DNA from: Acidobacteriota bacterium | GTDB lineage: Bacteria > Acidobacteriota > Vicinamibacteria > Vicinamibacterales > CAVVIG01 | NCBI GenBank assembly: GCA_003222395.1 | Contig: QHWB01000040.1 | Coordinates: forward strand, 188,573 to 252,572 | Direction of reading: 5' to 3' | Length of the DNA stretch: 64,000 bases | Shown: one piece after another, positions 5,293 to 38,092 of the stretch | Layout: the number at the start of each line of letters is the position of its first letter | Numbering within the stretch: the first letter of the stretch is position 1 | Notes under the pieces: model-generated | What the model saw: only the letters and a program-made list of their open reading frames with translations | The model's database searches: none | What the model was told of the DNA's origin: nothing | Position numbers and translations under genes: made by a program

Positions 5293-6510
5293 TTACTCGA
5301 ACCGCAGCGCCTCGATCGGGTCGAGTCGCGCCGCCTGCCGGGCCGGGTAATACCCGAAGAAGATGCCGATGGCCGCCGAGCAGCCGAAGGCGAGCGTGAC
5401 CGCGTTCGACGACACGCGCGCCGGCCACTGAAACGCATCCGCAATGGCCTGCGCCCCCAGCGTGCCCGCTCCGACGCCGATCGCGCCGCCGATCAGACTG
5501 AGGATGATCGCCTCGACGAGAAACTGCCGGAGCACGTCGCGGCCCCGGGCGCCGACCGCCTGGCGCAGACCGATCTCGCGCGTCCGCTCCGTCACCGACA
5601 CCAGCATGATGTTCATGATCCCGATGCCGCCGACGAGCAGCGACACCGAGGCGATCGCCGCGAGCAGCGCCTCCATCGTCCGGGTCGACTCTTTGACGGC
5701 CTCGGCGATCTCGGTCGGGTGCCGCAGGTTGAAGTCGTCGTTCGCGCCCGATCTGATGTGGTGCCGCTCGCGCAGCAGCGCCGCGATGTCCTGCTCGGCC
5801 GCGTCGACGACCGACGCCGACGTCCCGGACATCATGATGTCGTCGAGCCATGTCTGACCTTTGATCTTCTTCATGACGGTGGTGTACGGCATGAGGAAGT
5901 TGTCGTCCTGATCCTGTCCCGTCGCCGACTGGCCTTTGACATCGAGGACGCCGACGACCACGCACGGCTCGTTCTTCACGCGCATTGTTTCCCCGATCGG
6001 ATCCCGCGAGCCGAACAACTGATCGACGATCGTCTGGCCGAGCACGCAGACGTTGCGTGCGCGCTCGACGTCCGCGTCCGTGTACATGCCGCCACGGACG
6101 ACGTTCCACCCTTTGAGCGCCAGATATTCGGGCCCGACCCCGCGAACGGTCGTTCCCCAGTTCTGATTGCCGTACACGACCTGCACGCGCGTGTCGACCT
6201 GCGGCGTGACGTTGGCGACGGCCGCAATGTGCTCTTTGATGGCTTCGAAGTCGGCGAGCGTCAGTGTCTTCGTTCCGAATGCGCCCGTCCGCACGCCGGC
6301 GCGATTCACGCCGCCCGCCTCGACCCAAATCATGTTCGCGCCGATGTTGGCGATGGCGCGTTCGACGCTCGCCTGCGCGCCTTCGCCGATCGCGACAACG
6401 CAGATGACGGCGCCGACGCCGATGATGATGCCGAGCATCGTCAGCGACGTGCGCATGACGTTCTGCGCGAGCGCCTTCAGCGCGAGCCGCGGAATCATCA
6501 AGAGGTTCAT
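5293..6510 (-). CDS. MacB-like ABC transporter permease (FtsX family)
   Basis: About 405 residues with the four-helix MacB/FtsX layout: a first helix near residues 18-40 (MLGIIIGVGAVICVVAIGEGAQ), a large periplasmic domain, then three C-terminal helices including the LLVGGIGIMNIMLVSVTERTREIGLR signature. These permeases export peptides, lipoproteins or antibiotics with a separate ATPase and adaptor. Neither partner is adjacent. The ATG at 6510 is used; a GTG nine bases upstream is possible. The next gene, on the same strand, is unrelated. Confidence 0.9.
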   Translation of the reverse strand: MNLLMIPRLALKALAQNVMRTSLTMLGIIIGVGAVICVVAIGEGAQASVERAIANIGANMIWVEAGGVNRAGVRTGAFGTKTLTLADFEAIKEHIAAVANVTPQVDTRVQVVYGNQNWGTTVRGVGPEYLALKGWNVVRGGMYTDADVERARNVCVLGQTIVDQLFGSRDPIGETMRVKNEPCVVVGVLDVKGQSATGQDQDDNFLMPYTTVMKKIKGQTWLDDIMMSGTSASVVDAAEQDIAALLRERHHIRSGANDDFNLRHPTEIAEAVKESTRTMEALLAAIASVSLLVGGIGIMNIMLVSVTERTREIGLRQAVGARGRDVLRQFLVEAIILSLIGGAIGVGAGTLGAQAIADAFQWPARVSSNAVTLAFGCSAAIGIFFGYYPARQAARLDPIEALRFE

Positions 6511-6723
6511 CGCATTCACCGCGCGTCGATGCCTTCGCTGTCGCGCGCCGTTCGCGTCGTCGTCGAATCAGCAGGACTGTGATCTACGTCGCATCCGTTC
6601 GCTGACGCTCGACCCGCGAACGCATCTCCTGCTCCCAGGAGATCGGATCGAGTCCTCAGGTGCTGAAGCAGGGACGAAGCAGTCCGGCGACGATATCGCG
6701 CAGGGCGCCGAAAAACGCGGCCA

Positions 6724-8073
6724 TCATCTGCTTCGTCCGCCTCCGCCGGCGGTTGCACGTGGTATCTCGGCGCCCCGGATGTACACACGCGCGATCCGCC
6801 TGGTGTTGACAATGTCGTCGAGCGGGTTCGCATCGAGGACGATGAAGTCGGCGCTCTTGCCGGGCGCGATCGTGCCGAGACGATCGAGTCGCAGGATGTC
6901 GGCGGCCGTGCGCGTCGCCGCCACGATCGCCTCGGCCGGCGTCAGGCCGGCCGACACCATATGTTCGAGCTCGATGTGCTCCGTCCAGCCGAAGAGTCCG
7001 CCGGCGCTCTGGCCACCGACGTCGGTCCCGAGCGCAAGCCGGACGCCGGCGCGATTCAGCGCGGCGACATTCCGCGCGATCCTTTCCCAGTCGGCGCGCG
7101 CCGCCGCTGCCGACTGTGGCGTGCGGCGGGACAGCGTCTCCTTCACCTGTTCGATCACCGCGGCGGAGACCGTGTCGCGCAGGGCCGGCTCGGCGAGCCA
7201 CCGAGGCTCGGCAGTGTAGATATTGAGCCTCGGCGCAAAGAGCGTCAGCGTGAAGAAGACCTGCGGCCGTTCCTTCAGCAGTCCAAGCAGCTCGTCGTCC
7301 ACGTCGCGATCACGGACAGGATGAAGGAACCCATCGACGCCCGTCCGAAGAAGACTCTTCGCATCGTCGAGCGTCGCGATGTGCGCGAACACGCGCAGCT
7401 GATGCTTGTGCGCCTCGTCGATGATGGCGCGATACAAGACGGGGCTCAGCTTCGGCACCGTGCCGTTGCGGTCGTCGACCCAGATCTTGACGAAGTCGAC
7501 GTTCTTCGCCGCCAGTTCCCGGACGTCTTGTCTGGCCTCGCGCTCGCTGGAGACGCCATATGGCGCATCGCGCATCGGCGGATTCGGACCGGCATCGGGC
7601 GGAGCGAGGCCGCGCCATGCCGTCCGAACGACCGCGCCTGGATGCGGATCGTCGCGCAGCCGAAGCGTGAAGTCGCCGCGATCGGTGCCCGCGCTGCCGA
7701 CGGCCGCAACGCCGAAGTAGGCGAAACGATTCAGCTCGTCGACGATCGTGTCGCGGCTGAAGTTCTCGGCACGGAACGTCGCACCGCGTCGGTAACCAAG
7801 ATGCGTGTGGATGTCCACGAGCGCCGGCATCACGGTCTTGCCGCTCAGGTCCACCCGCCGAAAGCCGGTCGGCGTCTTCAACTCTCCCTGCCGGCCCACG
7901 CGCACGAACGTATCGCCTTGCACGATGAACGCCGATCGTTCGATGGCGGCACTGCCGTCACCGGTGATCAAACGCGCGCCGTCGAACAGCACGGCCGGCG
8001 CGTCGCGACGCGGTGACTGACCGACCATCGAGACGGTCAGCGAGACGACGCACGCGGCGGTCGCAGTCAGCAT
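6724..8073 (-). CDS. Secreted amidohydrolase (imidazolonepropionase-like)
   Basis: A 449-residue metal-dependent hydrolase with a signal peptide (MLTATAACVVSLTVSMVGQS). The usual metal ligands are present: HTH in VDIHTHLG, the bridging lysine in FVKIWVDD, histidines in FAHIAT and FLHPVRD, and the aspartate in GTDVGG. The C-terminal SADFIVLDANPLDDI strand is also typical. It may hydrolyse cyclic amides or peptides; the substrate is unknown. The start at 8073 was chosen because any longer reading would run into the tRNA-Leu gene. Confidence 0.88.
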   Translation of the reverse strand: MLTATAACVVSLTVSMVGQSPRRDAPAVLFDGARLITGDGSAAIERSAFIVQGDTFVRVGRQGELKTPTGFRRVDLSGKTVMPALVDIHTHLGYRRGATFRAENFSRDTIVDELNRFAYFGVAAVGSAGTDRGDFTLRLRDDPHPGAVVRTAWRGLAPPDAGPNPPMRDAPYGVSSEREARQDVRELAAKNVDFVKIWVDDRNGTVPKLSPVLYRAIIDEAHKHQLRVFAHIATLDDAKSLLRTGVDGFLHPVRDRDVDDELLGLLKERPQVFFTLTLFAPRLNIYTAEPRWLAEPALRDTVSAAVIEQVKETLSRRTPQSAAAARADWERIARNVAALNRAGVRLALGTDVGGQSAGGLFGWTEHIELEHMVSAGLTPAEAIVAATRTAADILRLDRLGTIAPGKSADFIVLDANPLDDIVNTRRIARVYIRGAEIPRATAGGGGRSR

Positions 8074-8679: not shown

Positions 8680-9362
8680 GTGAAGAAGCGGGTCATTTCG
8701 GCGGGTTTAACAATCGCTGGCGGGTTGGCGATCGCCGCCGCTTGTAGTCGACCGCAAGCTGAGTCGGGCTCGGCGAAGGTCGACAAGCTCTTCGCGCAAT
8801 GGGACAGGCCAGGTTCTCCAGGTTGCGCGCTTGGCGTGAGCCGAAATGGTGTGCCGCTTTACGAGCACGGGTACGGCGTCGCCAATCTCGAACTAGGCAT
8901 TCCAATTACACCATCGTCGGTTTTTGGCGCCGCCTCGATTTCGAAGCAATTCAAAACAGATTCCGGCTTCCAGGTGGCATCAATGCGCTGGAGTTTGTTC
9001 CGGCGACCGGCGTTCGGGCGCACGGGTGTCATATTGTCGACAACGCGGGCAAGCAGTTAGATGTACTGGAGCTGGTGACGTTCGAACCGTCGACGATCGA
9101 CCTGCGCTCGTCAGTCGGCGAGTACCGCAGTCTGGAGATCGATGTCACGTACACGGTTGCACTAGAAGGTTCCGGCCTAGCCGTGAGACCTCCTGGCAGG
9201 GCGCACATCGTTCTGCAGCCTGTCGCGAAGGACGTGTTCGCGGGCGATTCGGTCGGCACAGTGAAGTTCTTGCGCGACGCGCGAGGCGCTGTGTCGGGAT
9301 TCACAGTGAATCGAGACAAAGCGCGAGGCATTCGCTTCGATCGGGTCAAGCCAGCTGGCTAG
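8680..9362 (+). pseudogene. Beta-lactamase-family serine hydrolase, catalytic core deleted
   Basis: From the GTG at 8680 there is a lipoprotein-like signal (ending AAACS) and the start of a class C beta-lactamase/esterase domain: PGCALGVSRNG, GYGVANLELG and the catalytic SISK motif (SxxK). Just after SISKQF the sequence jumps, in another frame, to what looks like the C-terminal accessory domain of the same family (GEYRSLEIDVTYTV...LQPVAKDVF...SGFTVNRDKARGIRF). About 250-300 residues, including the YxN and HxG motifs, are missing. The result cannot be enzymatically active. Confidence 0.75.
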
Positions 9363-9456
9363 AGTTCGTGAAGATCGCGTCGATCGTCGCTACGCACTGC
9401 GCGATCGCATTGGCTCGGACTCGAGTTGCACGATGGCGAGCAAGGCGTGAGTTACG

Positions 9457-9972
9457 ATGGATGACGTGGTCAACGGCGCCGGTCGAATCGAGTCGATCAA
9501 CGTTTCACGTGGTGGAGTGCCGAAGATGCCGGTCTTCGAGGCGCTCGTGACCGTCGGCGGCATCGACGGCGACCGTCAGCGCGATCCGCGGTTTCACGGC
9601 GGACCCGAACGCGCCGTCGTGCTGTTCTCGCTCGACGTGATTCGCGCGCTGCAGCGTGAGGGCCATCCGATCGACATCGGAACGACCGGCGAGAATCTGA
9701 CTGTCTCGGGCATCGACTGGGCGGCCATTTCGCCCGGCGTGGAGCTAGAGATCGGCGGCGCGCGCCTTGTCATCACCAAGTACGCGAGTCCGTGCGAGAA
9801 GATCTGTCGCTCGTTTCTCGATGATGACTTCACGCGGATTTCGCAGAAGCTGCACGCCGGCTGGAGCCGCCTCTGCGCTCGCGTCGTTACCGAGGGCATC
9901 GTGCGCGCCGGCGACCGGGTGGAGCTCATCGAGGCAAACTCGAATCCCCAATCGCTCGTGGCTAATCGCTAA
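9457..9972 (+). CDS. MOSC domain protein
   Basis: 171 residues matching a stand-alone MOSC domain, the beta-barrel also found at the C-terminus of molybdenum-cofactor sulfurases. Signatures seen are FHGGPERAV, the GTTGENLTVSGI loop, and the invariant cysteine in SPCEKICRSF. Such proteins bind or transfer sulfur or molybdenum cofactor (YiiM-like). No molybdoenzyme is adjacent. The ATG at 9457 gives the usual domain length. Confidence 0.9.
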   Translation: MDDVVNGAGRIESINVSRGGVPKMPVFEALVTVGGIDGDRQRDPRFHGGPERAVVLFSLDVIRALQREGHPIDIGTTGENLTVSGIDWAAISPGVELEIGGARLVITKYASPCEKICRSFLDDDFTRISQKLHAGWSRLCARVVTEGIVRAGDRVELIEANSNPQSLVANR

Positions 9973-10711
9973 TCACTCAACCCAGTCCCCACTCACGTCC
10001 TCGAGGACACCGCCGCACCGTACAGACAGGAACTCTGCAAAATCGATTGTTCAATATGGCGGCAGTGAGCAATTTCTGCCGCCGTGCGGAACGCGATCAA
10101 CAATGGAGCGTCGCGCAATGACACACACATTGATTTTCATTTCTCTCGCCGCGCTCGGCGCGTACGCGATGGAGATTCCGCGACTCGATCTTCGCCGCGA
10201 TCCGTGCGGATCATGATCGAGCTCGATCGATTAGCTCCGCCCATCTCATCTGGGACGTCGTTAATACAATACCGGTTACCAGCCCGTCACGCTGAGGAAG
10301 CTCATCGTTCACGGACGGAATGGCGCGAACGGACGACACGGTTCCGCTCGGCTTACCGGAAACGCTGTGCTACGACCAGCGAATCCGCGTGGCGATTGAC
10401 GCCGACTGGGCGCTGCTGTCAGCCCGCTCGATCGTCGCCGTCGACGATGCAGGCATCGAGTACCGGCGCCGGACCGTCAGCTCGATGTCATGCAGGACCA
10501 TCTCCGGCAGCTGATCGACCGACGTGCGTATTCAGGCCGCGGTTCGCCCCGTGATTTCCTCTTCGGCGTCCTGGGGCTCGGCTTCTTCATGCTCATGTGG
10601 GTCATCGGGACGGGCTGATACTGCTCGGCTCGGAGCGTTGAAGACGCACGGGTGCTGCTCGGTATCGTTTCTGCTTCGGCAATCGTGATTGTCAAAGGAG
10701 AGGAGCGCCTG
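9973..10711. other. Region without a convincing gene
   Basis: Only marginal short frames are seen. One (10120-10216, 32 residues) starts with a hydrophobic stretch. Another (10490-10618, 42 residues) ends in a membrane-like segment (FLFGVLGLGFFMLMWVIG) that could be the tail of a decayed small membrane protein. None has a good ribosome-binding site or recognisable homology. Confidence 0.4.
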
Positions 10712-11149
10712 ATGAGTCTACTCGCGACGACCCTTCTGCTTGCGTTCGCCACGCAAGCGCAGCCGCCTCAGACCAAGCCAGCTTCGACTCCCGCTTCAGT
10801 TGTCGCCATCGGTTGCCTGCAATCGGCGACGGCCAACGGCCAAGAGCAATTCACGCTCACGATGAAGGATACGAACGCCGCGGCGGGCGAGGTGAAGACA
10901 ATCACCTACACGCTTTCGGCAACGGCGGCCGTCGATCTCAAGTCGCACATCGGACAACGCGTCGAAGTGACCGGCACGGAGGCGGGCCCGCCCGTTACCG
11001 CCGAAACCGATACGACACGGACCAGCACGCCTGCCGGAACGAGCGGAAGGACGCCGAAGGTCGAGACGCGGACGCGCACCGATATCGAAGCGCGTCAGCT
11101 GAAGGTGACGGCGATCAAGATGCTGACCGCAGATTGCCGCGTGCCTTAG
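10712..11149 (+). CDS. Small secreted protein of unknown function
   Basis: 145 residues. A signal peptide (MSLLATTLLLAFATQAQ) is followed by a low-complexity linker rich in P/T/S and a compact beta-rich domain (VVAIGCLQ, ITYTLSATAAVDLKSHIGQRVEVTGT). The C-terminal part repeats the RVEV/QLKVTAIK pattern of small OB-like periplasmic domains. Two cysteines (GCLQ and DCRV) could pair. The ATG at 10712 was chosen because AAAGGAGAGGAG lies just upstream. Function unknown; likely periplasmic. Confidence 0.75.
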   Translation: MSLLATTLLLAFATQAQPPQTKPASTPASVVAIGCLQSATANGQEQFTLTMKDTNAAAGEVKTITYTLSATAAVDLKSHIGQRVEVTGTEAGPPVTAETDTTRTSTPAGTSGRTPKVETRTRTDIEARQLKVTAIKMLTADCRVP

Positions 11150-11158
11150 CGAAGCGTG

Positions 11159-11203
11159 TAGGGATTCGGGATATAGGGATTAGGGATCGGGTCAGGGATC
11201 AGG
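11159..11203 (+). repeat. Telomere-like GGGAT/TAGGGAT short repeats
   Basis: Six imperfect units of (TA)GGGAT or CGGGAT/CGGGTC lie immediately upstream of the small gene at 11211. A similar run lies on the other strand, upstream of the ankyrin gene at 38.1 kb. Confidence 0.7.
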
Positions 11204-11210
11204 AGGCCAG

Positions 11211-11402
11211 ATGGTCGACGTCCGTCGCAATGACAAGCCGATGAAAAAGGACCAGAAGGGACCGCGCGAGGTGATCGACGAAACGAACGAGCAGATCCGC
11301 TCGAGCGGCACCAAACCGCGCATCGAAAACCCGAACCGGGATCGCGCGCGAGGCGATTGGGATCGCACCGGGGATCATCACGACGAGGACGTTTCTGATT
11401 AA
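11211..11402 (+). CDS. Small hydrophilic protein
   Basis: A 63-residue, very charged protein (KKDQKGPREVIDETNEQIRSSG) with no hydrophobic core, so probably disordered. A good AGGAGG site sits 6 bp before the ATG. It converges with the next gene, their stops overlapping. No family recognised. Confidence 0.5.
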   Translation: MVDVRRNDKPMKKDQKGPREVIDETNEQIRSSGTKPRIENPNRDRARGDWDRTGDHHDEDVSD

Positions 11403-11758
11403 TGAACGGTCGGCGACGAAGGCGCGCCTGAAGCCACAAGCACTCGGGCGATCATGGCTTCGAGCGCGCCTTTGTCGATCTCGAATGGACCGGCGACCGC
11501 AGCGCCCATCGTGATCTCGATTGCGATCACCACGCCGCCATGCTCGTACGGATTCACTATCCAACTCAGTCCTCTGAGGGAGATCCCTCGATCGGCTTCG
11601 CCGGGACGCTTCTTCCGATCCATCGCGCGTAGCATTCCTTCGAGCAGCGCCCGCACATCGTCGTCGGTCCACGCTCCGGGCTGACGCGCGACATCGTCGA
11701 TCGATTCGGTCGTCGCGAAATCGGTGCCTCGAAGCCAGACGTCGACCGACACCCTCAT
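11399..11758 (-). CDS. Conserved-looking hypothetical protein
   Basis: 119 residues, soluble. Segments [21 protein letters not shown] and [12 protein letters not shown] are predicted helices around a beta strand region ([23 protein letters not shown]). The start ATG overlaps the stop of the DUF255 gene in ATGA, so it is co-translated with it. I do not recognise the family. The coupling suggests a function linked to the thioredoxin-domain protein. Confidence 0.65.
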
Positions 11759-13887
11759 GCGGTCGCCCTCAGCTGCTCGTGCAGCGCGTCGACGGTGGTC
11801 ACCGGCTGTCGACAGGTAAAGCGCTGGCAGACGTACGCGGCGGCGGCGCCGTCGATCGGCCGCATCGACGCAATGAACGGCAGGCTGCCGGCCAGCGGGC
11901 GTTGTCTCTCGGCCGACACGCGCAGCACGATCGCGAACGGCAGATATTCGCGCGCGACCGCGCGCGCGAGGGCCTCGCCGCCGCTCGTCTGCCCGGCTCC
12001 GGCCGGCGGATCGACGATGACGATTTGCTGAACGCCGGCCGTGTGGGTCGACAACGCGGCCGCCATCATCGGAACCGCGCGGCCGGCCTGCTCCAGCCGC
12101 GTCGCGAAGTACCGCAGCGTGCGTTCGATCCGATCGGGCCAGGCGGGGTTCTCGACGAGGTGCGACAGCAGCAGCAGGTTCAGCACCGAGACGGAACTCG
12201 GCGTCGGCTCCGCGCCGTCGTAGTCCTCCTTCATGCGCAGCAGAACGCTCGGGTCCTGGCCGGTTGTGCTGAACCATCCGCCCGCGGCATCGTCCCAGAA
12301 CAACTCGTCCTGCCGCTGTTGCAGGGCGATCGCCCATTCCAGCCAGATCGGATCCGCGTCCGCCTGAAAGAGCTCGAGCAGGCCGAAGATCAAGTAGGCA
12401 TAGTCTTCCGCGTATGCGTCGATTTCGGCATGGCCGCCGCGGTACCGGCGCAGCAGCGTGCGCGAATCGGCGCGCCACATCCGTTCGCGGATGAAGGCGG
12501 CGGCACGCCGCGCGGTCTGGCGGTACGATTCGGCGTCGAGCACGCGGGCCACGCGGGCGAACGCGGCGATCATCAGCCCGTTCCAGGCGGTCAGAATCTT
12601 GTCGTCGCGCTCGGGGCGCGGCCGCTTCATCCGCGCGAGAAACATCTTCACCCTCGTCTCGTTGAGAATGGTAATGATCTCGTCGCGCGTCTTTCCCGTC
12701 TGAAGCGTGATGTCGTCGATGCCCCGGGCGACGTACAGAATGTTCTTGCCGGTGAATTCCTGCTGCGGATCCTGCGGTGCGTTGCCGCCCGATTCGATGC
12801 CGTGCCGCATCTTCACGATCGCCGCGTCGTCGCCGAGCAGCGCGTCGACTTCGTCGGCGCGCCAGAGATAAAACGCGCCCTCGCGTTTGTGGGGCCCGCC
12901 GTCCGCCGATTGGTCGGGTGCGGTGTCGAGGCTGTCCGCGTCTTCCGCAGAATAGAATCCGCCATCGGGATCGGTCATCTCGCGCCCGACGTACGCCAGC
13001 GTGTCCTCCGCAACTTCCACGTAGAACGGATCGCCGGAGAGCTGCGCCGCCTCCGCGTAGGCGAGCGCGAGCTGCGCCTGGTCGTACAACATCTTCTCGA
13101 AGTGCGGCACGCGCCAGGTCGCGTCGACCGAATAGCGATGGAAGCCGCCGCCGATGTGATCGCGCATGCCGCCAAAGGCCATCACACGCAGCGTCCGCAG
13201 CGCCATGTCGCGCGCGTCGCCGTTGCCCGTTCGTGCGTGCTCGCGCATCAGGAAGAGGAGCTCCGACGGACGTGGAAATTTCGGCGCGTCGCCGAAACCA
13301 CCGTACCGCTCGTCGAATCCCTCACGGAACTGCTGCAGGGTGCGTTGCAGCGCCTCCGCGCCCGGCGGCGTCCACGCCGGAGCGGTCCGCTCCATCGCGC
13401 GCAGCTGCGCCGTCAGCGATTCGGCCGACTGCTCGACCTTCGCACGTTCCGCCCGCCAGACGCGCGCAATCTCGCCGAGGATGTCGACGAATCCCGGCCG
13501 CCCCCATCGCGACGTCGGCGGGAAATAGGTGCCGCCGTAAAACGGCTTCAGGTCCGGCGTCAGCCACACGCTCATCGGCCAACCACCAGAACCGGTTGTC
13601 GCCTGAACGAACGTCATGTACACGCGGTCGACGTCGGGGCGCTCTTCACGATCGACCTTGATCGAAACGAAGTGCTCGTTCAGTATCGCCGCCACGTCGG
13701 CGCTCTCGAACGATTCGTGCGCCATGACGTGACACCAGTGGCACGTCGAGTACCCGATCGAGAGGAAGATCGGTTTGTCCTCGGACCGCGCCCTTGCGAA
13801 CGCGTCGTCGCCCCATTCGAACCACTCGACCGGATTGCCGGCGTGTTGAAGAAGGTACGGACTGCGCGCCGCCGCGAGACGATTCAT
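11755..13887 (-). CDS. Thioredoxin-domain protein, DUF255/YyaL (spermatogenesis-associated protein 20-like)
   Basis: About 710 residues. The N-terminus carries the DUF255 thioredoxin-like domain: [25 protein letters not shown], the redox motif [25 protein letters not shown] and [14 protein letters not shown]. The rest is the (alpha/alpha)6-barrel resembling N-acylglucosamine 2-epimerases ([33 protein letters not shown]). Length matches the family (about 690). Start at 13887 was preferred over 13914, which would overlap the divergent gene. The biochemical role of the family is unsettled. Confidence 0.93.
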
Positions 13888-29098: not shown

Positions 29099-32011
29099 GT
29101 GCCGCTGACCCCAGGAATCCGCATCGCCGGTCGATTCGAGATCGTCGCTCCGATCGGCGCCGGCAGCATGGGCGAGGTCTACCAGGCACACGATCTGACG
29201 CTTCACCGGGACGTCGCGCTCAAGCTGCTCTCCCCTGCGCTGGCCACCTCTGAAGAGCATCTGGCGCGCTTCCAGCGCGAAGCCCGCGCCGCGTCGGGAC
29301 TCAATCATCCGAATATCTGCACGATTTACGACATCGGCCAGGCCGCCGAAGCCGACGGACGCCCGTATCTCGTAATGGAACTGCTCCGCGGCTTCACGCT
29401 GTATGAAGGGCTCGCGAGCGGACCTCTTGCGGTCGGAACCGTCGTCAACATCGGCGTGCAGGTCGCCAATGCGCTCGACGCCGCGCATTCGGCGGGCATC
29501 GTCCACCGCGACATCAAGCCGGCGAACATCTTCATCACGACGCGCGGCGACGCGAAGCTGCTCGACTTCGGCCTTGCCGCGGTCGCCCAAGCCACCGAGG
29601 CGTCGGCGTCGCTCACCAATCCGGGCACCTCGGTCGGAACGGTTCTGTACATGTCGCCCGAGCAGGCGCTGGGCGATCCGCTCGACGCGCGGACCGACAT
29701 CTTCTCGTTTGGCGTCGTCTTGTACGAAATGGTGACCGGGCGCCGCGCGTTCGAAGGACGGTCGACGACCGCGATCGTCGACGCGATTCTCCATTCGACG
29801 CCGTCGGGACTCGATGCCGCAGGCGCGATAACGATTCCGACAAGTCTCCGGCAGCTGATCGCGCGCATGCTCGACAAGAACAAGGATCGGCGTCCGGCGA
29901 GCGCCGCTGAAGTCGCGGTTCATCTGCGCGCGGTGCAGAGCGGGTCGATCGCCGGACGTGAATATGCTGCGGTAACCGAAGCCAGCACCGCGCGCACGAA
30001 CGGCACGAACGATTTGCAGGTCGAATCGGACGTGTTTCAAGAGACGCCGGCGTACCTGCCGAGGATTGGCTCGTCCTCCGGCCTGACGCGGGCGTGCGAA
30101 AACATTCGAATGCGCGACGTCGGTCCGATGTCGCTCGGGCTATTGGTGCTCGCTGCGGCCCTGTATATCGGCTATTCGCGGTTTCACGGCGCCACGCCTT
30201 CGCTCACCGCGCGCGAACCACTGCTGCTGGCCGACTTCGTCAACACGACCCGCGAGCCGGTGTTCGACGGCGCGCTCAAGGATGCGCTCGAAATCCAGCT
30301 GCAGCAGTCGCCGTACGTGAACGTGCTGCCCGTCTCGCAGATACACGCGGCGCTGCGGCTGATGCAGAAGCCGGCGAGCGAACCGGTATCGCCCGAGGTC
30401 GCCCACGATCTCTGCCAGCGCGTCGGCGCCAAAGCCGTCCTGCTGGGATCGATTGCACCGCTCGACAGCGCGTACGTCGTGAAGCTGGAAGCGCAGGCGT
30501 GCGGATCGGGCGACGTCGTGGCGCGGCAGCAGGTGCAGGCGGCATCGAAAACCGACGTCCTGCCCAGCGTCGGATCCGCCGCCGCCCGATTGCGCGAGCA
30601 GCTCGGCGAATCGCTTGGATCGATTCAGCGTTTCAACGTGCCGGTTCAGCACGCGACGACGGCATCGCTCGAAGCGCTCAAGGCGTACAGCATGGGGCTC
30701 GACACGCGCAACCGTATCGGCGATGTGCAGGCGATCCCGCTGTTCGAACGCGCGCTCGCCCTGGACCCGAACTTCGCGCTGGCCGCCGCGCGTCTCGCGT
30801 CGATTTACACGAACCTCGCCGACCAGGCGAAAGCGCAGGAGTACATGAAGCGCGCCTTCGAGCGCAGCGAAGGGCTCAGCGAGCCCGAGCGCCTCTTCAT
30901 CACCTCGTCGTATCACTTCATCGTCACCGGGCGCCTCGATCAGGTCGTCACGACCTATCAGCTGTGGATCAGCACGTATCCGCAGGACTGGATTCCGCAC
31001 AACAACTTGTCGTCGGCCTACTCGCGGCTCAATCAACTCGACGCCGCGGTGCACGAAGCGCAGGCAGCCGTCCAGCTCGCGCCCAACATCGTCATCGGGT
31101 ACCAGCAACTCGCGCATACGCTGCTCGTGGCCGACCGGTTGGACGAGGTGAAGGCGGTGCTCGCCGATGCCGCCACCCATTCGCTCGATTCGTCATACAA
31201 CCGCGCAGTTGCCTACGACATCGCCTTTCTCGAACACGACACCGCACGCATGCAGGAGCAGCTGCGCGCATCGGCGTCGCGGGCCGACGGCTATCTGATT
31301 CTGACCGAAGCGGCACGCGCCGCGCTCGCCGCCGGCGAAATCGAGACGAGCCGCACTCTGTACGGCAAGGCTATTGAAGAGGCGCAGGAAGCGAAGATCA
31401 TGGATTACACCGGCAGCCTTCTCGCGGAGCAGGCGATCGGCGACGGGCTGATCGGTGATGGCGCGCGCGGCGCGGAACGATTCCAGCGGGCACTCGTCAC
31501 GAGCCACGGAATAGAGACCACGTGGTCCGCGGCGCTGGCGGCAGCGTTCGCCGGCCGCACCACCGACGCCGCGCGCCTCGCGTCCACGTATCAGCGGCTG
31601 GCGGTGCCGGCGGCCGATATCGTCAACGGCGTTATACCGATGCTCAATGCGGCCGTGGCGATCGCGAACGACAACCCGCGGAGCGCGATCGATTTGCTCG
31701 CCGGCGCCACCGCCTACGAGCGGTCAGTCGGAATCTGGATTCCGTACTTGCGTGGGCTCGCATTGGCCCGCGTCAACGATCACCGGCGGGCGGCGGCCGA
31801 ATTCCGCAAGGTAATCGCGCGCCGCGGCAGTCAGCCCGCGAGCCTCCTGCACACGCTCGCCACGCTTCAGCTCGCGAGAGCGGTGCGTGCAGCCGGCGAT
31901 ACGGCCGCCGCGCGCCAGGCGTACACCGACTTCACGACCGCGTGGGCCCACGCCGACAGTGGCGTGCCGTTACTGGCCGAAGCGATGCGAGAAGCCTCTG
32001 CGCTGAAATGA
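29099..32011 (+). CDS. Ser/Thr protein kinase with membrane anchor and TPR sensor domain
   Basis: 970 residues from a GTG. Kinase domain about 12-280: glycine loop GAGSMGEV (21-28), Lys42, catalytic HRDIKPAN (Asp138), DFG (156-158), and MSPEQ for the activation segment. A single helix about 344-360 (SLGLLVLAAALYIGY) places the remainder outside the cytoplasm. The rest is a FlgO-like stretch and TPR repeats (DPNFALAAARLASIYTNLADQAKAQEYMKRAFE). The stop overlaps the next start (ATGA), so kinase and radical-SAM enzyme are co-translated. Confidence 0.94.
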   Translation: MPLTPGIRIAGRFEIVAPIGAGSMGEVYQAHDLTLHRDVALKLLSPALATSEEHLARFQREARAASGLNHPNICTIYDIGQAAEADGRPYLVMELLRGFTLYEGLASGPLAVGTVVNIGVQVANALDAAHSAGIVHRDIKPANIFITTRGDAKLLDFGLAAVAQATEASASLTNPGTSVGTVLYMSPEQALGDPLDARTDIFSFGVVLYEMVTGRRAFEGRSTTAIVDAILHSTPSGLDAAGAITIPTSLRQLIARMLDKNKDRRPASAAEVAVHLRAVQSGSIAGREYAAVTEASTARTNGTNDLQVESDVFQETPAYLPRIGSSSGLTRACENIRMRDVGPMSLGLLVLAAALYIGYSRFHGATPSLTAREPLLLADFVNTTREPVFDGALKDALEIQLQQSPYVNVLPVSQIHAALRLMQKPASEPVSPEVAHDLCQRVGAKAVLLGSIAPLDSAYVVKLEAQACGSGDVVARQQVQAASKTDVLPSVGSAAARLREQLGESLGSIQRFNVPVQHATTASLEALKAYSMGLDTRNRIGDVQAIPLFERALALDPNFALAAARLASIYTNLADQAKAQEYMKRAFERSEGLSEPERLFITSSYHFIVTGRLDQVVTTYQLWISTYPQDWIPHNNLSSAYSRLNQLDAAVHEAQAAVQLAPNIVIGYQQLAHTLLVADRLDEVKAVLADAATHSLDSSYNRAVAYDIAFLEHDTARMQEQLRASASRADGYLILTEAARAALAAGEIETSRTLYGKAIEEAQEAKIMDYTGSLLAEQAIGDGLIGDGARGAERFQRALVTSHGIETTWSAALAAAFAGRTTDAARLASTYQRLAVPAADIVNGVIPMLNAAVAIANDNPRSAIDLLAGATAYERSVGIWIPYLRGLALARVNDHRRAAAEFRKVIARRGSQPASLLHTLATLQLARAVRAAGDTAAARQAYTDFTTAWAHADSGVPLLAEAMREASALK

Positions 32012-34029
32012 CCGCGCGCCACGACGTCGTGTTCGTCTCGATGCCGTTTGGTCCGCTGTTCTCGCCGTCGCTTGCCCTGAGCCTGCTGCAGCCGCAGGTA
32101 CATGCGCGAGGCCTTGCGTGCCGCGTCGAATACTTCACGCTGGCCTACGCCGAGCGCGTCGGCCATTCGCTGTACTCCAAGATCCTCGCGGAGCATCGCG
32201 CGATGGCGCGCAGCTTCGTCGGCGAGTGGATTTTCTCGCACGCGCTTTTCGACTGGCCCGCCGGGCACGATCAGCGGTACCTGCGCGAAGTGCTGCGCAG
32301 GGCGCCTTCACACCTTGGATGGAATCAGAACAAGCCGCCGGGCGCGCGCGACATGGCAGCGCTCGAGGACGCCGTGGCGTCGGTATCGTCATTCGTCGAC
32401 TGGTGCGCCGGCCGGATCGTCGATCTCGAACCGCGCCTGCTCGGCTTCACGAGCGTGTTCCAGCAGCATCTGGCGTCCCTCGCGCTCGCCAAACGCGTCA
32501 AGGCGCGCTTCCCCGGCGCGTTCGTCGTGATCGGCGGCGCGAACTGCGAAGCCGCGATGGGGATGGAAACGGTGCGCCAGTTTCCCTTCGTCGATGCCGT
32601 GGTCTCCGGCGAAGCCGATCGCGTGGTGGGCGACCTCGCGGCGCGCGTCGTTGCGGGCGATCCGATCGAGGGACTGCCCGGCGTGGTCACCCGAAAGACG
32701 CTCGCAGCGAGGGGCCTGGGCTGCGGCACGCCGACGGCGGTCGTCAACGACATTGACGTGCTGCCGTACCCCGATTACACCGACTACTTCGATCAGTTTG
32801 CGCGCAGCAGGTTCCGCGATCAGTGGCAGCCGAGCGTGTACGTCGAAACGTCGCGCGGCTGCTGGTGGGGCGAGCGGATGCACTGCACGTTCTGCGGCCT
32901 CAACGGCGAGACGATGACGTATCGCAGCAAATCGGCCGCGCGGGCACTCGACGAGCTGACGCACCTGGCGACCACTTACCCCGGCTGCGACATCCAGGTC
33001 GTCGACAACATTCTCGATCTCAAGTACTTCAGAACGCTGCTGCCGATGCTGGCCGAGCGGAAGCTGAAGGTCTCGCTGTTCTACGAGACGAAATCGAACC
33101 TCAAGAAAGATCAGGTCCGGCTGCTGCGCGACGCCGGCGTCACGATCATCCAGCCCGGCATCGAGAGCCTCAGCGACAACGTGCTGAAGCAGATGAAGAA
33201 AGGCGTCTCGGGCCTGCAGAACATTCAGCTGCTGAAGTGGTGCAAGGAATTCGGCGTCGAGCCGCTGTGGAACGTGCTCCTCGGATTCCCGGGCGAATCG
33301 CCAGACGATTACCACCGGATGGCGGAGCTCACCGCGCAGCTGTGCCACCTGCCGCGGCCGGTGTGCGTGACGGCGATCCGACTCGACCGGTTCAGTCCGA
33401 ACTTCAACGAGTCCGATCGTCTCGGCTTCGCGCGAGTGCGGCCGCTCCCGTTCTACGAATTCCTCTACGACCTGCCGGAGTCGGCGCGGCGCAACCTCGC
33501 GTACTTCTTTGCGTACGAATACCAATCGCCGCAGGACGTCGCCAGCTACGCGGCGCCGCTGATCCGCCGCGTGCACGCATGGAAGACGACCTGGCGGCAC
33601 TCGGAGCTCGTATCGATCGATATCGCCAATCGGCTGGTGGTGTTCGACACCAGGCCGCGGGCAAAAGCGCCGATTTCCATGCTGTCGGGCGAGGATCGCG
33701 ATCTGTATCTCGCGTGCGACGCGATCACCGACTCGAGCCAGGTCGACGCCTCGAGCATGGCCCGGTTGAACGCGATGGTCGATCGCGGGCTGATGCTGAA
33801 GGACGGTGCGCGCTACCTGTCGCTCGCCGTTCCGATTGGAGACTACACGCCGAAAGGGATTGCCGCCGCGCGGCTGCGTGCGATGTTCGCTTCGTCCACG
33901 ACGCGCGATTATGACGGCGTCCGCATCCGATTCAGCGCGAGCGGAGCGCACGATCGCTCACCGCTGACGAAGTCGCATTTCGAGCTCGACGCGGCCAACG
34001 AGTTGTACGTGCGGCGGACTGTCCGCTGA
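32008..34029 (+). CDS. B12-binding/radical-SAM RiPP maturation protein (rSAM_ocin_1 type)
   Basis: 673 residues. N-terminal half: a cobalamin-binding-like fold (LLGFTSVFQQHLASLALAKRVKARFP, GGANCEA). Radical SAM motif: SRGCWWGERMHCTFCGLNG with Cys285, Cys293 and Cys296, spacing CX7CX2C. That spacing and the preceding ETSRGCWWG text are the signature I know from the RiPP-maturation radical SAM C-methyltransferase family (TIGR03975). Its C-terminal 150 residues have no named domain. The DxHxxG cobalamin-binding motif is not evident. It follows the kinase by an ATGA overlap and precedes the lysine-rich peptide by 15 bp, as a modifying enzyme and substrate would. Confidence 0.88.
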   Translation: MTARHDVVFVSMPFGPLFSPSLALSLLQPQVHARGLACRVEYFTLAYAERVGHSLYSKILAEHRAMARSFVGEWIFSHALFDWPAGHDQRYLREVLRRAPSHLGWNQNKPPGARDMAALEDAVASVSSFVDWCAGRIVDLEPRLLGFTSVFQQHLASLALAKRVKARFPGAFVVIGGANCEAAMGMETVRQFPFVDAVVSGEADRVVGDLAARVVAGDPIEGLPGVVTRKTLAARGLGCGTPTAVVNDIDVLPYPDYTDYFDQFARSRFRDQWQPSVYVETSRGCWWGERMHCTFCGLNGETMTYRSKSAARALDELTHLATTYPGCDIQVVDNILDLKYFRTLLPMLAERKLKVSLFYETKSNLKKDQVRLLRDAGVTIIQPGIESLSDNVLKQMKKGVSGLQNIQLLKWCKEFGVEPLWNVLLGFPGESPDDYHRMAELTAQLCHLPRPVCVTAIRLDRFSPNFNESDRLGFARVRPLPFYEFLYDLPESARRNLAYFFAYEYQSPQDVASYAAPLIRRVHAWKTTWRHSELVSIDIANRLVVFDTRPRAKAPISMLSGEDRDLYLACDAITDSSQVDASSMARLNAMVDRGLMLKDGARYLSLAVPIGDYTPKGIAAARLRAMFASSTTRDYDGVRIRFSASGAHDRSPLTKSHFELDAANELYVRRTVR

Positions 34030-34044
34030 CGAGGAGGCGCGACG

Positions 34045-34149
34045 ATGGCGAAGAAGAAGGCGGGAACCAAGAAGAAGGCGGCGGGCGGAAAGAAGAAGAA
34101 GAAGGCAGCGGTCAAGAGAAAGAAGCCCGCCGGCTGCATCTACAATTGA
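34045..34149 (+). CDS. Lysine-rich short peptide, candidate RiPP precursor
   Basis: A 34-residue peptide too short for usual gene callers. GAGGAGG lies 7 bp before the ATG, a better ribosome-binding site than most genes here have. It contains 14 lysines and one arginine with small residues between, and ends PAGCIYN, the only cysteine and tyrosine in the peptide. A short substrate next to a radical-SAM maturase is the usual arrangement for RiPPs: the Lys-rich part would be the leader and AGCIYN the modified core. Alternatively it is a nucleic-acid-binding basic peptide. Its stop is 3 bp from the end of the opposing GMC gene. Confidence 0.6.
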   Translation: MAKKKAGTKKKAAGGKKKKKAAVKRKKPAGCIYN

Positions 34150-34152
34150 CGA

Positions 34153-35871
34153 CTACGAACGGCGATTCGAAATCCTGTTCCAGTTCTTCGCGAGATGCTC
34201 CGCCGTGCGCCACGCGAGCGCCTGCACGGTGAGCGTCGGATTGTGCGCGCCGCTCGTCCCCATCGTCGAGGCGCCGAGGACGCCGAGATTTGGCGCCTCA
34301 TGCGAAAGGCCCCAGCGATCGACGACGTTGGTCGCGGGATTGTCGCCCATGCGCGTTCCGCCGTACGCGTGCGTGCTGATTCCCATCGCGCCGCCGACCG
34401 GCGCGCGCTGAATCGCGACCGCGCCCGCTTCGCGATACCACTGCTCCATTTTTCCCTGCGTGAACAGCGATACGCGTCGTTCGTTCTCCTTGAACTCCGC
34501 GGTGACGCGGCAGACCGGGAAGCCGAGCGGATCCTTCACGACGGGATCGAGATCGATGTAGTTGTCCTCGTACGGGAGCGTCGTCTTCTGGATGTACGCG
34601 GTGTTCGATCGATCGGCGTTCTCCTTGATGAACGCCTTCCATGCCGATCCCCATGCGGGCGCGCGGCCGAACGTGCTCATGCCGGCGGCGCCGATCGGAC
34701 GGCGATCCGAGTACACCCACAGGTTGCCGCCGCCGATGAAATCGAGGCCCGAATGATCGAAGTTGTCGTCGGCCCAGTCGTCGACGGCGACGCCCTGCGC
34801 GGGAAGGCCGTACCACGAGCTCGTATTGGAGGGAAACAGCGCCGACACGCCGGCGAGCATGTTGTGGCTGAAGTAGTGGCGGCCGACCTGACCGTGATTG
34901 TTCGATAGACCGTTCGGAAACGCTTTGGACTTCGACAGGAGCAGCAGCCGCACGTTCTCGTACGTGTAGCCCGCCACGAGCACCACCTTCGCGGGCTGGA
35001 AATACTCGACGCCGTCGGTGAGGTAGTTCACGCCGGCAACCTGACCGTTCGCGTCGACTTCGATCGTCGTCACATGCGCGCGCGTCACCACCTTGAGGCG
35101 TCCTGTCGCCTGCGCGCGCGGAATCGTCGTCACCATCGTCGAGTTCTTGGCGTCGACGTGACAGCCGCCGCGATTGCAGAAGCCGTGATACATGCAGGGC
35201 GAGCGATTCTGGTACGAGCGCGAATTGACGGCGGCCGGGCCGGGGAACGGATGAAACCCGAGCGATTTCGCGCTCCCCGCCATCTTCTCGATGAACTCGG
35301 TCCAGCGGAGCGGCGGCATCGGATAGCCGCGCCTGCGCGGCGCTTCGAACGGGTTGCCGCGCGGATCGATCCGGCCGTCGACGTTGCCCGCCTGACCCGA
35401 GACGCCGACTCCGTACTCGACTTTGTCGTAGTAGGCCTCGAGCTCATCGTAATCGAACGGCCAGTCCTCGACAGTCGACCCTTTCGGAATCCGCGATGCG
35501 CCGTACCGCCGCGTCGTCTCGCTCACGACTTTGAAATCCCACGGATTGAGACGCCAGCTCTGTCCCCAGTAATGCAGCGTCGTGCCGCCGACGCTGTTCT
35601 GCATCGGATGGACGGTGCCGCGCGGCGCACTCGGCGACGAGGCGTTGGGCCGTGACGTCGGAATCTCCTGATTCGCTTTCTGCACCGACTGCGGCCAGCC
35701 GCGCACGTTGTTGCGCAGCTCGTCGGGCGCGAAATCCTTTCGCGTGAGCCACGTCCCGGCCTCGAGGCCGACGACCTCGATTCCGGCCTGCGCCAGCGGA
35801 AGCGCGGCGACACCGCCGGCGGCGCCGAGTCCGACGATGACGACGTCCGTGTCTTTCAGCCTGTTCGCCAT
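34153..35871 (-). CDS. GMC family oxidoreductase (FAD-dependent dehydrogenase, large subunit type)
   Basis: 572 residues. The N-terminal FAD-binding motif is DVVIVGLGAAGGVAALPLAQAG; a second FAD region and the GMC signature follow. The C-terminal half has HAYGGTRMGDNP and VLGASTMGTSGAHNPTLTVQALA with the catalytic His/Asn. It resembles the large subunit of gluconate 2-dehydrogenase and related alcohol/sugar dehydrogenases. A 5-bp gap from the subunit-3-like gene indicates that the two form a complex. A cytochrome subunit is missing in the window. Confidence 0.93.
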   Translation of the reverse strand: MANRLKDTDVVIVGLGAAGGVAALPLAQAGIEVVGLEAGTWLTRKDFAPDELRNNVRGWPQSVQKANQEIPTSRPNASSPSAPRGTVHPMQNSVGGTTLHYWGQSWRLNPWDFKVVSETTRRYGASRIPKGSTVEDWPFDYDELEAYYDKVEYGVGVSGQAGNVDGRIDPRGNPFEAPRRRGYPMPPLRWTEFIEKMAGSAKSLGFHPFPGPAAVNSRSYQNRSPCMYHGFCNRGGCHVDAKNSTMVTTIPRAQATGRLKVVTRAHVTTIEVDANGQVAGVNYLTDGVEYFQPAKVVLVAGYTYENVRLLLLSKSKAFPNGLSNNHGQVGRHYFSHNMLAGVSALFPSNTSSWYGLPAQGVAVDDWADDNFDHSGLDFIGGGNLWVYSDRRPIGAAGMSTFGRAPAWGSAWKAFIKENADRSNTAYIQKTTLPYEDNYIDLDPVVKDPLGFPVCRVTAEFKENERRVSLFTQGKMEQWYREAGAVAIQRAPVGGAMGISTHAYGGTRMGDNPATNVVDRWGLSHEAPNLGVLGASTMGTSGAHNPTLTVQALAWRTAEHLAKNWNRISNRRS

Positions 35872-35876
35872 TCCGC

Positions 35877-36620
35877 CTACGCCTGCCGATCTCCGCCGGC
35901 GTCGGCGGACAAGCGTGCCGATGACTTCGTGAAGGTGCCGTAGTCGTACGCCGACTTGTGATTCGATTTCAGCTGATGCGCTTCGAGGGTCCTTTGATCG
36001 GTCGGACTCACCATCGTCCGCACGCCGGGATAGCCGATCAGATCCCAGCCGGCGAAATCTCTGTTCCCGCCGTAATACGGATCGCCGAACGTTCCCTGAT
36101 GTGTGTGGTTCAAGACCATTGCGAAGAAGGCGGCGGAGCTGCCGGTGAAGCCGGTTGCGGCACCGGTCTCGACGTCGATTAACACGGAATCCTGATCGGT
36201 CGGCGACAGCTCCTTGAACGTCTTGCCGCGGGATGACTGCGCGTAACGGTCGAGCGCTGCAAGTCCCGATCGGTAGGCCTCACGCGTCGGCGACAACGCG
36301 CCGGCGAGCGCGCGATCGATGTAGCGCGCCGCGCCGGCCTCCACGGCGCCCGGCCCATTCGCGTCGGTTGGAATCAGCCGTCCGACGATCGCGTCGAGCA
36401 CCTCCATCTCGTGCGCCGAGAGGCTCTCAAGCGCTTCGGGGGCGCCGCTCGCCTGAAAGGCCCGCGCCATGGACTCGTCGCGTAGCGCGAAGCTTTCAGC
36501 CGAGCGCTCCGGTGCGACGATCGCTCTGCCATCGCTCGCCTCAAAGGCTCCCGCTACAGGTACCGCTGCGACGGCGCCAACGGCGCTCTTCAACAAATCG
36601 CGTCGTGAAATGAATGTCAT
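35877..36620 (-). CDS. Gluconate 2-dehydrogenase subunit 3 family protein (Tat-exported)
   Basis: 247 residues with a twin-arginine signal (SRRDLLKSAVGAVAAVPVAGAFEA). The domain includes LSAHEMEVLDAIVGRLIPTDANGPGAVEAGAARYIDRAL and TFGDPYYGGNRDFAGWDLIGYPG, the family signature. This subunit is the Tat-bearing partner that carries the folded GMC dehydrogenase to the periplasm. Its ATG overlaps the stop of the ankyrin-PEBP gene (ATGA), so three genes are co-translated. Confidence 0.93.
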   Translation of the reverse strand: MTFISRRDLLKSAVGAVAAVPVAGAFEASDGRAIVAPERSAESFALRDESMARAFQASGAPEALESLSAHEMEVLDAIVGRLIPTDANGPGAVEAGAARYIDRALAGALSPTREAYRSGLAALDRYAQSSRGKTFKELSPTDQDSVLIDVETGAATGFTGSSAAFFAMVLNHTHQGTFGDPYYGGNRDFAGWDLIGYPGVRTMVSPTDQRTLEAHQLKSNHKSAYDYGTFTKSSARLSADAGGDRQA

Positions 36621-38092
36621 TTGCGTTCGTAGGTGGCGATGAGCTCGCCCTGGCCAAGGACGTGACCGTTAATCGCCTCGAGAAGATCCGCGCGTGTCAA
36701 GCCAGGCTTCAAATCTGGCGTCATGTCGAGCGCGTAGACGACGAAGTGATAGTGATGCACTTTGCCGGGCAGCGGCGCCGGCCCACGGTAGATCGGACGG
36801 CGAAATCCCGACACGCCCTGTGTCGATCCGGCAATCTCCTTCGGCATCGGCTGATCAGGCTCGAACGGAATCGCTTCGGGCAACCCGTTCGCGTCCGCTG
36901 GAATGTTGTAGACGACCCAGTGCGCGTACGGCGGCGGACTGCCGGCATCTGGATCCTCGCACACCACAGCCAGAGACTTCGTGCCGTCCGGCACCCCACT
37001 CCACGCCAGCGGCGGCGAGTCGTTGCGTCCGTCGGCGGTGTACTGCTTCGGGATCGGTTGATCGGCCTTCAGCGCCGTGCTGGTCACCTCGAGAGGCTGC
37101 GGGACGATGTGAGCGGCGCGCGCCTGCTTGAACAGCTCGGCGATGTCGAGGCGGCCGCTCATCGCGGCAAACGTCCAACCCGTGCGGCCGTTTCCGTCTC
37201 TGATATTGATATCGGCCCCGCGCTGCAGGAGCAGGCGCACGATCTCGAGATGACCCGCCTGCGACGCCTTGATCAGGGCCGTCCGTCCGTCGTGGTCCTT
37301 CGCGTCAACCCTTGCGCCGCGATCGAGCAGCATCTGGACGACCTCGACGCAGTTATCGCCCGCGGCGCTCACCAGCGGCACGACGTCGCCTTCGGCGCCG
37401 TTCACGTTCACGCCGTCCGCAAGAATCGATCGCACGACGGTTGAATGACAGCCCGCCGCGGCCAGCGCGAGGTCTCCCGGCCTCGCCTTGAGGCCGCGCT
37501 TCCGCAAAACCGCCATCGCCTCGGCGTGACCTTCGGCGGCCGCGTACGTGAGCGGCGTGCTGCCGCCGGCGTCGGCAATTGTCGGATCGCCCCCGGCGCC
37601 GATGAGCGCCTCCACCGTGCCGGCGTCGCCGCTCGTCGCGGCCGCCATCATCGCGGTGCGCCCCTGACTGTCTTTCGCGTTCGGGTTCGCGCGACTCGCA
37701 AGGAGCGCGCGAACCGCATCGGCATAGCCGCCGAACGCCGCAACCATGAGCGCGGTCATCCCGCCGCCGCTCGTCGCGTTTGCATCTGCGCCGCCGGCGA
37801 TCAGCAGCTTCATCACGTCGACGCGGTTCGCCGAGGCGGCGCGCATCAGCGCGTCCGAGCCGTCCTTGCTGGAGGCCTTCACGCTGGCGCCCGCCGCGAT
37901 CAGCATGCGCGCGATCGCGGTCCGCCCTTCCGACGCGGCGACCATGAGCGGCGTCATGCCGGTCTCGTCCATCGCGTTTACGTCGGCGCCGCCAGCGATC
38001 AGCGACTGCACCGCCTTCGTGTCGCCGTACAGAACGGCATCGGTCAACGACGTCTGCTGCATCATCGCCGCCGCCAGCACAAGCGCAACCAT
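36617..38092 (-). CDS. Ankyrin-repeat protein fused to a YbhB/YbcL (PEBP) domain
   Basis: 491 residues. A signal peptide-like start is followed by about nine ankyrin repeats (residues 25-325; repeats such as TPLMVAASEGRTAIARMLIAAGA). The C-terminal PEBP domain (about 335-491) has VVCEDPDAGSP, the ligand-pocket YAHWVVYNIP, and YHFVVYALD. The fusion of an ankyrin scaffold with a phosphatidylethanolamine-binding-like domain is uncommon. It is the first gene of the GMC dehydrogenase operon, so it could assist export, folding or substrate binding of that complex; that is inference. Confidence 0.92.
   Translation of the reverse strand: MVALVLAAAMMQQTSLTDAVLYGDTKAVQSLIAGGADVNAMDETGMTPLMVAASEGRTAIARMLIAAGASVKASSKDGSDALMRAASANRVDVMKLLIAGGADANATSGGGMTALMVAAFGGYADAVRALLASRANPNAKDSQGRTAMMAAATSGDAGTVEALIGAGGDPTIADAGGSTPLTYAAAEGHAEAMAVLRKRGLKARPGDLALAAAGCHSTVVRSILADGVNVNGAEGDVVPLVSAAGDNCVEVVQMLLDRGARVDAKDHDGRTALIKASQAGHLEIVRLLLQRGADINIRDGNGRTGWTFAAMSGRLDIAELFKQARAAHIVPQPLEVTSTALKADQPIPKQYTADGRNDSPPLAWSGVPDGTKSLAVVCEDPDAGSPPPYAHWVVYNIPADANGLPEAIPFEPDQPMPKEIAGSTQGVSGFRRPIYRGPAPLPGKVHHYHFVVYALDMTPDLKPGLTRADLLEAINGHVLGQGELIATYERK

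Follow-up and report, generated by a model that had tools for sequence, protein, structure and literature searches.

The question raised by this locus is what a lysine-rich peptide of 34 residues does directly behind the gene of a B12-binding radical SAM enzyme. The locus lies on contig QHWB01000040.1 of a soil-type Acidobacteriota bacterium (GCA_003222395.1), in the 64,000-nt stretch of DNA that was analysed and is called the window here. The open frame at 34045-34149 (+) translates to MAKKKAGTKKKAAGGKKKKKAAVKRKKPAGCIYN, followed by a stop, and its ATG lies 15 bases downstream of the stop of the enzyme frame, which ends at 34029. A Shine-Dalgarno sequence, AGGAGG, is located at 34032-34037 (+), 7 bases 5' of the ATG. 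The first-pass annotation had singled out this frame for its ribosome-binding site and its strong amino-acid bias, and both were borne out: AGGAGG stands 3-10 bases upstream of 12 of the 1501 ATGs on both strands of the window, and this is the window's only ATG-ORF of at least 20 residues with at least 30 % lysine. Our best explanation, with a probability of roughly two in three, is that the peptide is a RiPP-type substrate of the upstream enzyme, built of a lysine tract that would act as carrier and a short C-terminal core that would be C-methylated.

The peptide is a real gene, conserved and under constraint. A search with the enzyme as query against 60 genomes (its own and relatives) gave five further genomes, at 68-72 % identity. 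The first-pass annotation had named loss of the frame, or stop codons, in close relatives as the outcome that would count against it; instead the frame, the start and the AGGAGG hexamer were kept in 5/5. The peptides of these relatives end in VGCIFPG, VGCIFEG, VGDIFN, VGDIFN and TGCIYP, and the six closest peptides, with that of the window, thus share the end G[CD]I[FY], in which Gly and Ile are the invariant residues, Cys is replaced by Asp in two of six and Tyr stands as Phe in four of six. The earlier view that the gene is real and its C-terminus meaningful therefore held, whereas the stress laid on the single Cys and Tyr did not, both being replaced in relatives. The codon-level comparison that had been suggested pointed in the same direction: across all 15 pairings of the six sequences dN/dS ranged from 0.15 to 0.53, and the two most similar pairs gave 0.16 and 0.25. 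When three pairs independent of one another were taken together, nonsynonymous changes made up 21 of 38 altered codons, compared to a share of 0.73-0.79 expected if neutral; the P value of this test was 0.006 at a neutral share of 0.75, 0.04 at 0.70 and 0.14 at 0.65.

The enzyme is encoded at 32008-34029 (+), with its start set at the ATG that overlaps the stop of the kinase gene before it. It matched TIGR03975 (RiPP maturation radical SAM C-methyltransferase) with 649.1 bits, compared to a curated cut-off of 281.85, residues 7-608 aligning to model positions 1-606. The fold predicted from 11 sequences (mean pLDDT 76) was closest to TsrM (E 1.6e-14), TokK (Z 19.3 over 403 residues) and OxsB, which are B12-radical SAM methyltransferases. 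In all 11 aligned enzymes the iron-sulfur motif CxxxCxxC is replaced by Cx7Cx2C, which in the window is CWWGERMHCTFC at 32860-32895 (+). Residues 534-605 (33607-33822, +) are predicted to form a C-terminal domain with the strand-helix order of PqqD/RRE-like domains. This assignment is tentative, with a weak PqqD match in one of seven members (E 0.098) and no PDB profile match of the PqqD/RRE kind, and a readthrough model left the peptide undocked, with peptide pLDDT 28-33.

The Cx7Cx2C motif is reported for PoyC and for the bottromycin methyltransferases, and PoyC is described as methylating Ile and Val at Cbeta, in two reviews (PMC5682303, PMC11285071). The window enzyme has the same motif as PoyC, and the peptide ends keep Ile or Val. 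This likeness rests on the features so reported; the window precursor would be a lysine-rich peptide of 34 residues and not a proteusin with a long leader. In the polytheonamide system, to which PoyC belongs, the precursor is such a long-leader proteusin. A second precedent is ApyD of the aminopyruvatide pathway, an RRE-containing B12-radical SAM enzyme that is reported to act on a C-terminal GYLYD, whose penultimate Tyr it converts to beta-methyltyrosine (PMC10635010). A penultimate Tyr is also found in the GCIYN of the window, although the window enzyme lies outside the ApyD family (NF050148, 71.8 bits compared to a cut-off of 750).

The first-pass annotation offered no mechanism for the peptide, and the neighbouring gene suggests one. 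From the sequence we infer that the B12-dependent radical SAM enzyme, whose gene immediately precedes that of the peptide, takes the peptide as its substrate and modifies it. The Lys/Ala/Gly/Thr tract would be the recognition and carrier segment, probably acting by charge, the recognition role being a guess. By the chemistry outlined in these reviews, the enzyme would cut SAM to give the 5'-deoxyadenosyl radical, a hydrogen would be taken from the core (here PAGCIYN, a putative core encoded at 34126-34146, +, and delimited from the two-part composition of the 12 known peptides), and methylcobalamin would provide the methyl group for the carbon radical in this short C-terminal segment. Because of the PoyC and ApyD precedents, Ile/Val or the aromatic residue is proposed as the methylation site: the beta carbon of Ile (Val in some relatives) would be the likeliest, as with PoyC, and the neighbouring penultimate Tyr/Phe, by analogy with ApyD, less likely. 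In contrast to the aminopyruvatide pathway of ApyD, no P450, MNIO or second methyltransferase turned up when 21 of the 27 ORFs lying at 17-54 kb of the window were scanned with Pfam.

The peptide is linked to one clade of the enzyme. Relatives were searched at three levels, the own genome being counted each time: the order (12 of 162 genomes matched at 1e-40), the class (17 of 193 at 1e-90) and the phylum (25 of 396 evenly drawn genomes at 1e-90). The loci found were examined for the peptide, 15 of them with known gene strands. A lysine-rich ORF of 27-50 residues was found directly 3' of a TIGR03975 enzyme in 12 genomes, which represent two or more classes, G200 being a peptide-bearing genome from outside the window's class. 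Loci L002-L086, 426,268 bp with some regions present twice, contain 19 ATG-ORFs of 20-60 residues with at least 35 % lysine; these represent 12 distinct peptides, and each of the 19 directly follows a TIGR03975 enzyme. Another 416,648 bp (the window and L087-L134) contained 13 such ORFs, namely the same 12 and one of 22 residues elsewhere, in L125, an unrelated locus that had entered through a chance match. The association of peptide and enzyme is thus more than chance. In a tree of 56 enzymes, all 12 peptide-linked enzymes fall within one clade of 14 rows (support 100/99), and the peptide is absent behind two of the 14, the enzyme of G525 and the first tandem copy in G519, where the second copy carries it. 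Presence and absence require three changes on the tree, at least two of them forced by the starred branches, and these may represent a single gain with two losses. At 8 of 11 readable loci, which are related by descent, peptide and enzyme share a reading frame.

Some loci of this clade are irregular. In L091 (G519, about 9100-13550, -) a tricorn-type protease gene lies before the two tandem TIGR03975 enzymes, on the same strand. In L092 (G105, about 5960-7730, -) the TIGR03975 gene is split over two frames with the lysine-rich ORF intact behind it, and the broken frame is due to either sequencing error or decay. In G020 the enzyme is present as two partial copies that overlap and differ slightly, the downstream side being visible for one only.

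The 12 peptides are built of two parts. With the boundary set, by our choice, at the last eight positions, the first parts comprise 324 residues, of which 185 are Lys, 77 Ala, 24 Gly, 17 Thr and 14 Pro (317 together) and seven are others, with no Ile. Apart from the start Met, residues other than K, A, G, T, P, V, R and S occur only in the last eight positions, which hold every Cys, Asp, Glu, Asn, Phe, Tyr, Gln and Ile and every non-start Met. An Ile or Val is present among them in 12/12 peptides; it always falls within the final six residues and is the only feature that the 12 ends share. The N-terminal part is conserved by composition rather than by exact sequence. The C-terminal end is variable, alike among close relatives and differing between subclades (GCIYN, ACIGPG, VAIMS, ADISNGQD, GMVRGG, RQVF, GPVKAF). 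To judge from sequence, the split in composition and the subclade-specific ends are what a carrier with a core would be expected to look like.

The same composition could also be read as that of a small protein of histone H1 type that would bind nucleic acid through its lysine tract and whose translational coupling to the enzyme would be incidental. Some bacterial DNA-binding proteins are known to carry Lys/Ala-rich tails, and the 185 Lys and 77 Ala of the first parts would fit one. We nevertheless consider this unlikely: the peptide is tied to one enzyme clade, the G[CD]I[FY] conserved in the six closest peptides is not obviously needed by a DNA-binding tail, and when the peptide was compared with NCBIfam and Pfam at E values up to 1 it matched none of their families, although models of this kind perform poorly on sequences of low complexity. 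The same comparison returned no known precursor family and no NHLP or Nif11 leader model, and an assignment as a Nif11/NHLP or lanthipeptide precursor was set aside since no model matched the peptide.

A substrate peptide beside the gene would be in keeping with other TIGR03975 systems. Annotated RiPP precursors lie beside the enzyme in two of four plasmid regions, that of S. meliloti, with four Nif11-like precursors and an epimerase, and that of Methylomagnum, with CefA. In the Niallia region a 56-residue hypothetical peptide lies directly behind the enzyme, and no precursor is annotated beside that of S. clavuligerus. The systems of S. meliloti, Methylomagnum and Niallia share with the window the enzyme family and an adjoining small peptide gene; the enzymes of the window, Niallia and L039 scored above the TIGR03975 cut-off, and the others are placed in the family by annotation. 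The window differs from these systems in that its peptide is lysine-rich and has no Nif11/NHLP match, and a leader-like motif is found on the tail of the enzyme instead. One survey set clusters found by the TIGR03975 rule aside as likely false positives (PMC9426513). A variant with a lysine-rich precursor was not found in the literature searched, which covered few subscription papers.

The tail in question, LTKSHFELDAANELYVRR at 33964-34017 (+), has the pattern LT..HF......EL.VR, and a similar motif occurs on the enzyme tails at 7 of the 12 peptide loci. By hhalign it resembles a motif of separate peptides, L..D.F.....G..VI, which is common to those of Niallia, L039 (from a Chloroflexota genome, downstream of the enzyme) and L056 (from G186, upstream of the enzyme) and absent from the lysine-rich peptides. 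Tails and leaders, picked for the profile comparison, like the regular expression, after the motif had been noticed, aligned with a score of 26.1 (P 3.7e-6), while none of 400 column shuffles exceeded 14.3; among 169 windows taken along the enzyme alignment, the top two scores were those of the two tail windows. However, an HMM of the seven tails failed to recover the separate peptides, with L039 at E 19 and L056 outside the best 60 matches. The Niallia peptide as query against 396 genomes gave a list dominated by noise, with matches in 93 genomes at E values of 1 or below; the G186 peptide was third by E (0.028), with 18 bits compared to 17.9 for the next match. Against plasmids the Niallia peptide found itself and one weak match only. 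G005, G020 and G017 lack the tail, it is weak in G200, and it could not be read in G105, so a locus can have the peptide without it. Borosins are reported to have RiPP recognition parts either fused to the enzyme or split from it (PMC8429565), which provides a precedent for such an arrangement, although their chemistry differs, being backbone N-methylation. A leader that may have been transferred onto the enzyme is thus a good lead rather than a result.

A further peptide of 57 residues, basic and containing SMKKVRGGFFDVFTEVSATG, was seen about 280 bases before TIGR03975 genes in two genomes of the same order (L037 and L043); its L037 form had no NCBIfam match.

Upstream of the enzyme, 29099-32011 (+) encodes a Ser/Thr protein kinase of 970 residues with TPR repeats and one hydrophobic stretch, whose stop overlaps the enzyme start (ATGA). 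This overlap and the short spacing suggest that kinase, enzyme and peptide form a single operon, and in the window the three are probably co-transcribed. A protein-kinase gene adjoins the unit or lies within about 2 kb of it at 11 of the 12 peptide loci; the G020 contig begins inside the enzyme, and that of G005 has only the TPR part. With 20 kinase matches in the 7.7 Mb of the window's genome, a kinase this close would be expected by chance in a few per cent of cases. The kinase link is thus likely, and the partner is not constant: TPR repeats are found in the window, G200, G539 and G105 and PD40 repeats in G223 and G519, the orientation varies between loci, and kinase matches also lie near the enzymes of G525 and G410, where no lysine-rich peptide was found. 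The kinase as a fixed partner is weakened by these observations. The TPR part of the window kinase matched TIGR04510 (putative peptide modification system cyclase) with 179.6 bits, below the cut-off of 400.

No protease or exporter was found at a constant place beside the unit among the neighbours scanned, which included M48 and M24 peptidases and RND efflux genes in the window, RND efflux genes in G223 and a tricorn-type protease in G519. The upstream M48 peptidase was considered as leader protease and set aside; it is present in the window and G017 but had no match in the regions of G016 and G026, although these reach an HMGL gene beyond the kinase. The lack of a constant protease or exporter leaves release of a product unexplained and counts against a substrate, although either could be encoded elsewhere in the genome. 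It would agree better with the peptide being an accessory or activator, whose end would insert into the enzyme, the enzyme's true substrate being another protein or a metabolite. The leader-like tail that the enzyme itself carries at 7/12 loci would suit such a role, and a kinase near the unit at 11/12 would fit signalling. This, too, appears improbable, as the ends vary between subclades while Ile/Val stays, which is expected of cores, and as members of the TIGR03975 family stand beside annotated precursors elsewhere. A spurious or decaying frame without a functional product is very improbable. Its low complexity and its range of 27-50 residues, consistent with repeat slippage, might suggest AAG codons multiplied downstream of a favourable ribosome-binding site, but the frame, start, ribosome site and C-terminus are kept and the changes are biased towards synonymous ones.

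Taken further, the reading of the peptide as a C-methylated substrate suggests a rearranged RiPP system, in which the leader motif would have moved to the enzyme tail, perhaps keeping the enzyme in its active state there, and the peptide would consist of a polylysine charge carrier and a core of 5-8 residues, C-methylated at Ile/Val. The methylated peptide may then stay in the cell as a kinase-linked signal or a nucleic-acid-bound effector, and not be cleaved and exported. We regard this fuller picture as possible but doubtful. Precursor finders look for leader-like peptides, and a lysine-rich ORF of 27-50 residues is easily discarded as low complexity. If the substrate reading is true, a clade of acidobacterial B12-radical SAM enzymes gains its substrate, the polylysine tract would be an unfamiliar route for delivering a substrate to a RiPP enzyme, and the whole would be an atypical form of a known kind of bacterial system for peptide modification. 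A core of 5-8 residues would also be short enough for a direct test of C-methylation.

On the downstream side, genes for a GMC oxidoreductase (34153-35871, -) and a gluconate 2-dehydrogenase subunit 3 (35877-36620, -) converge on the unit. The former, together with the aromatic residue near the C-terminus of the peptide, suggested a mycofactocin-like cofactor precursor. The GMC oxidoreductase matched MftG weakly (33 bits compared to a cut-off of 387.45). Both genes lie beside the unit only in the window, G016, G026, G005 and G020, all of the window's own family; the contig of G017 ends too soon to show the region, and neither was found at the six other peptide loci. Because the two genes are confined in this way, the mycofactocin-like reading was set aside. 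Next to them, 36617-38092 (-) encodes ankyrin repeats fused to a phosphatidylethanolamine-binding domain.
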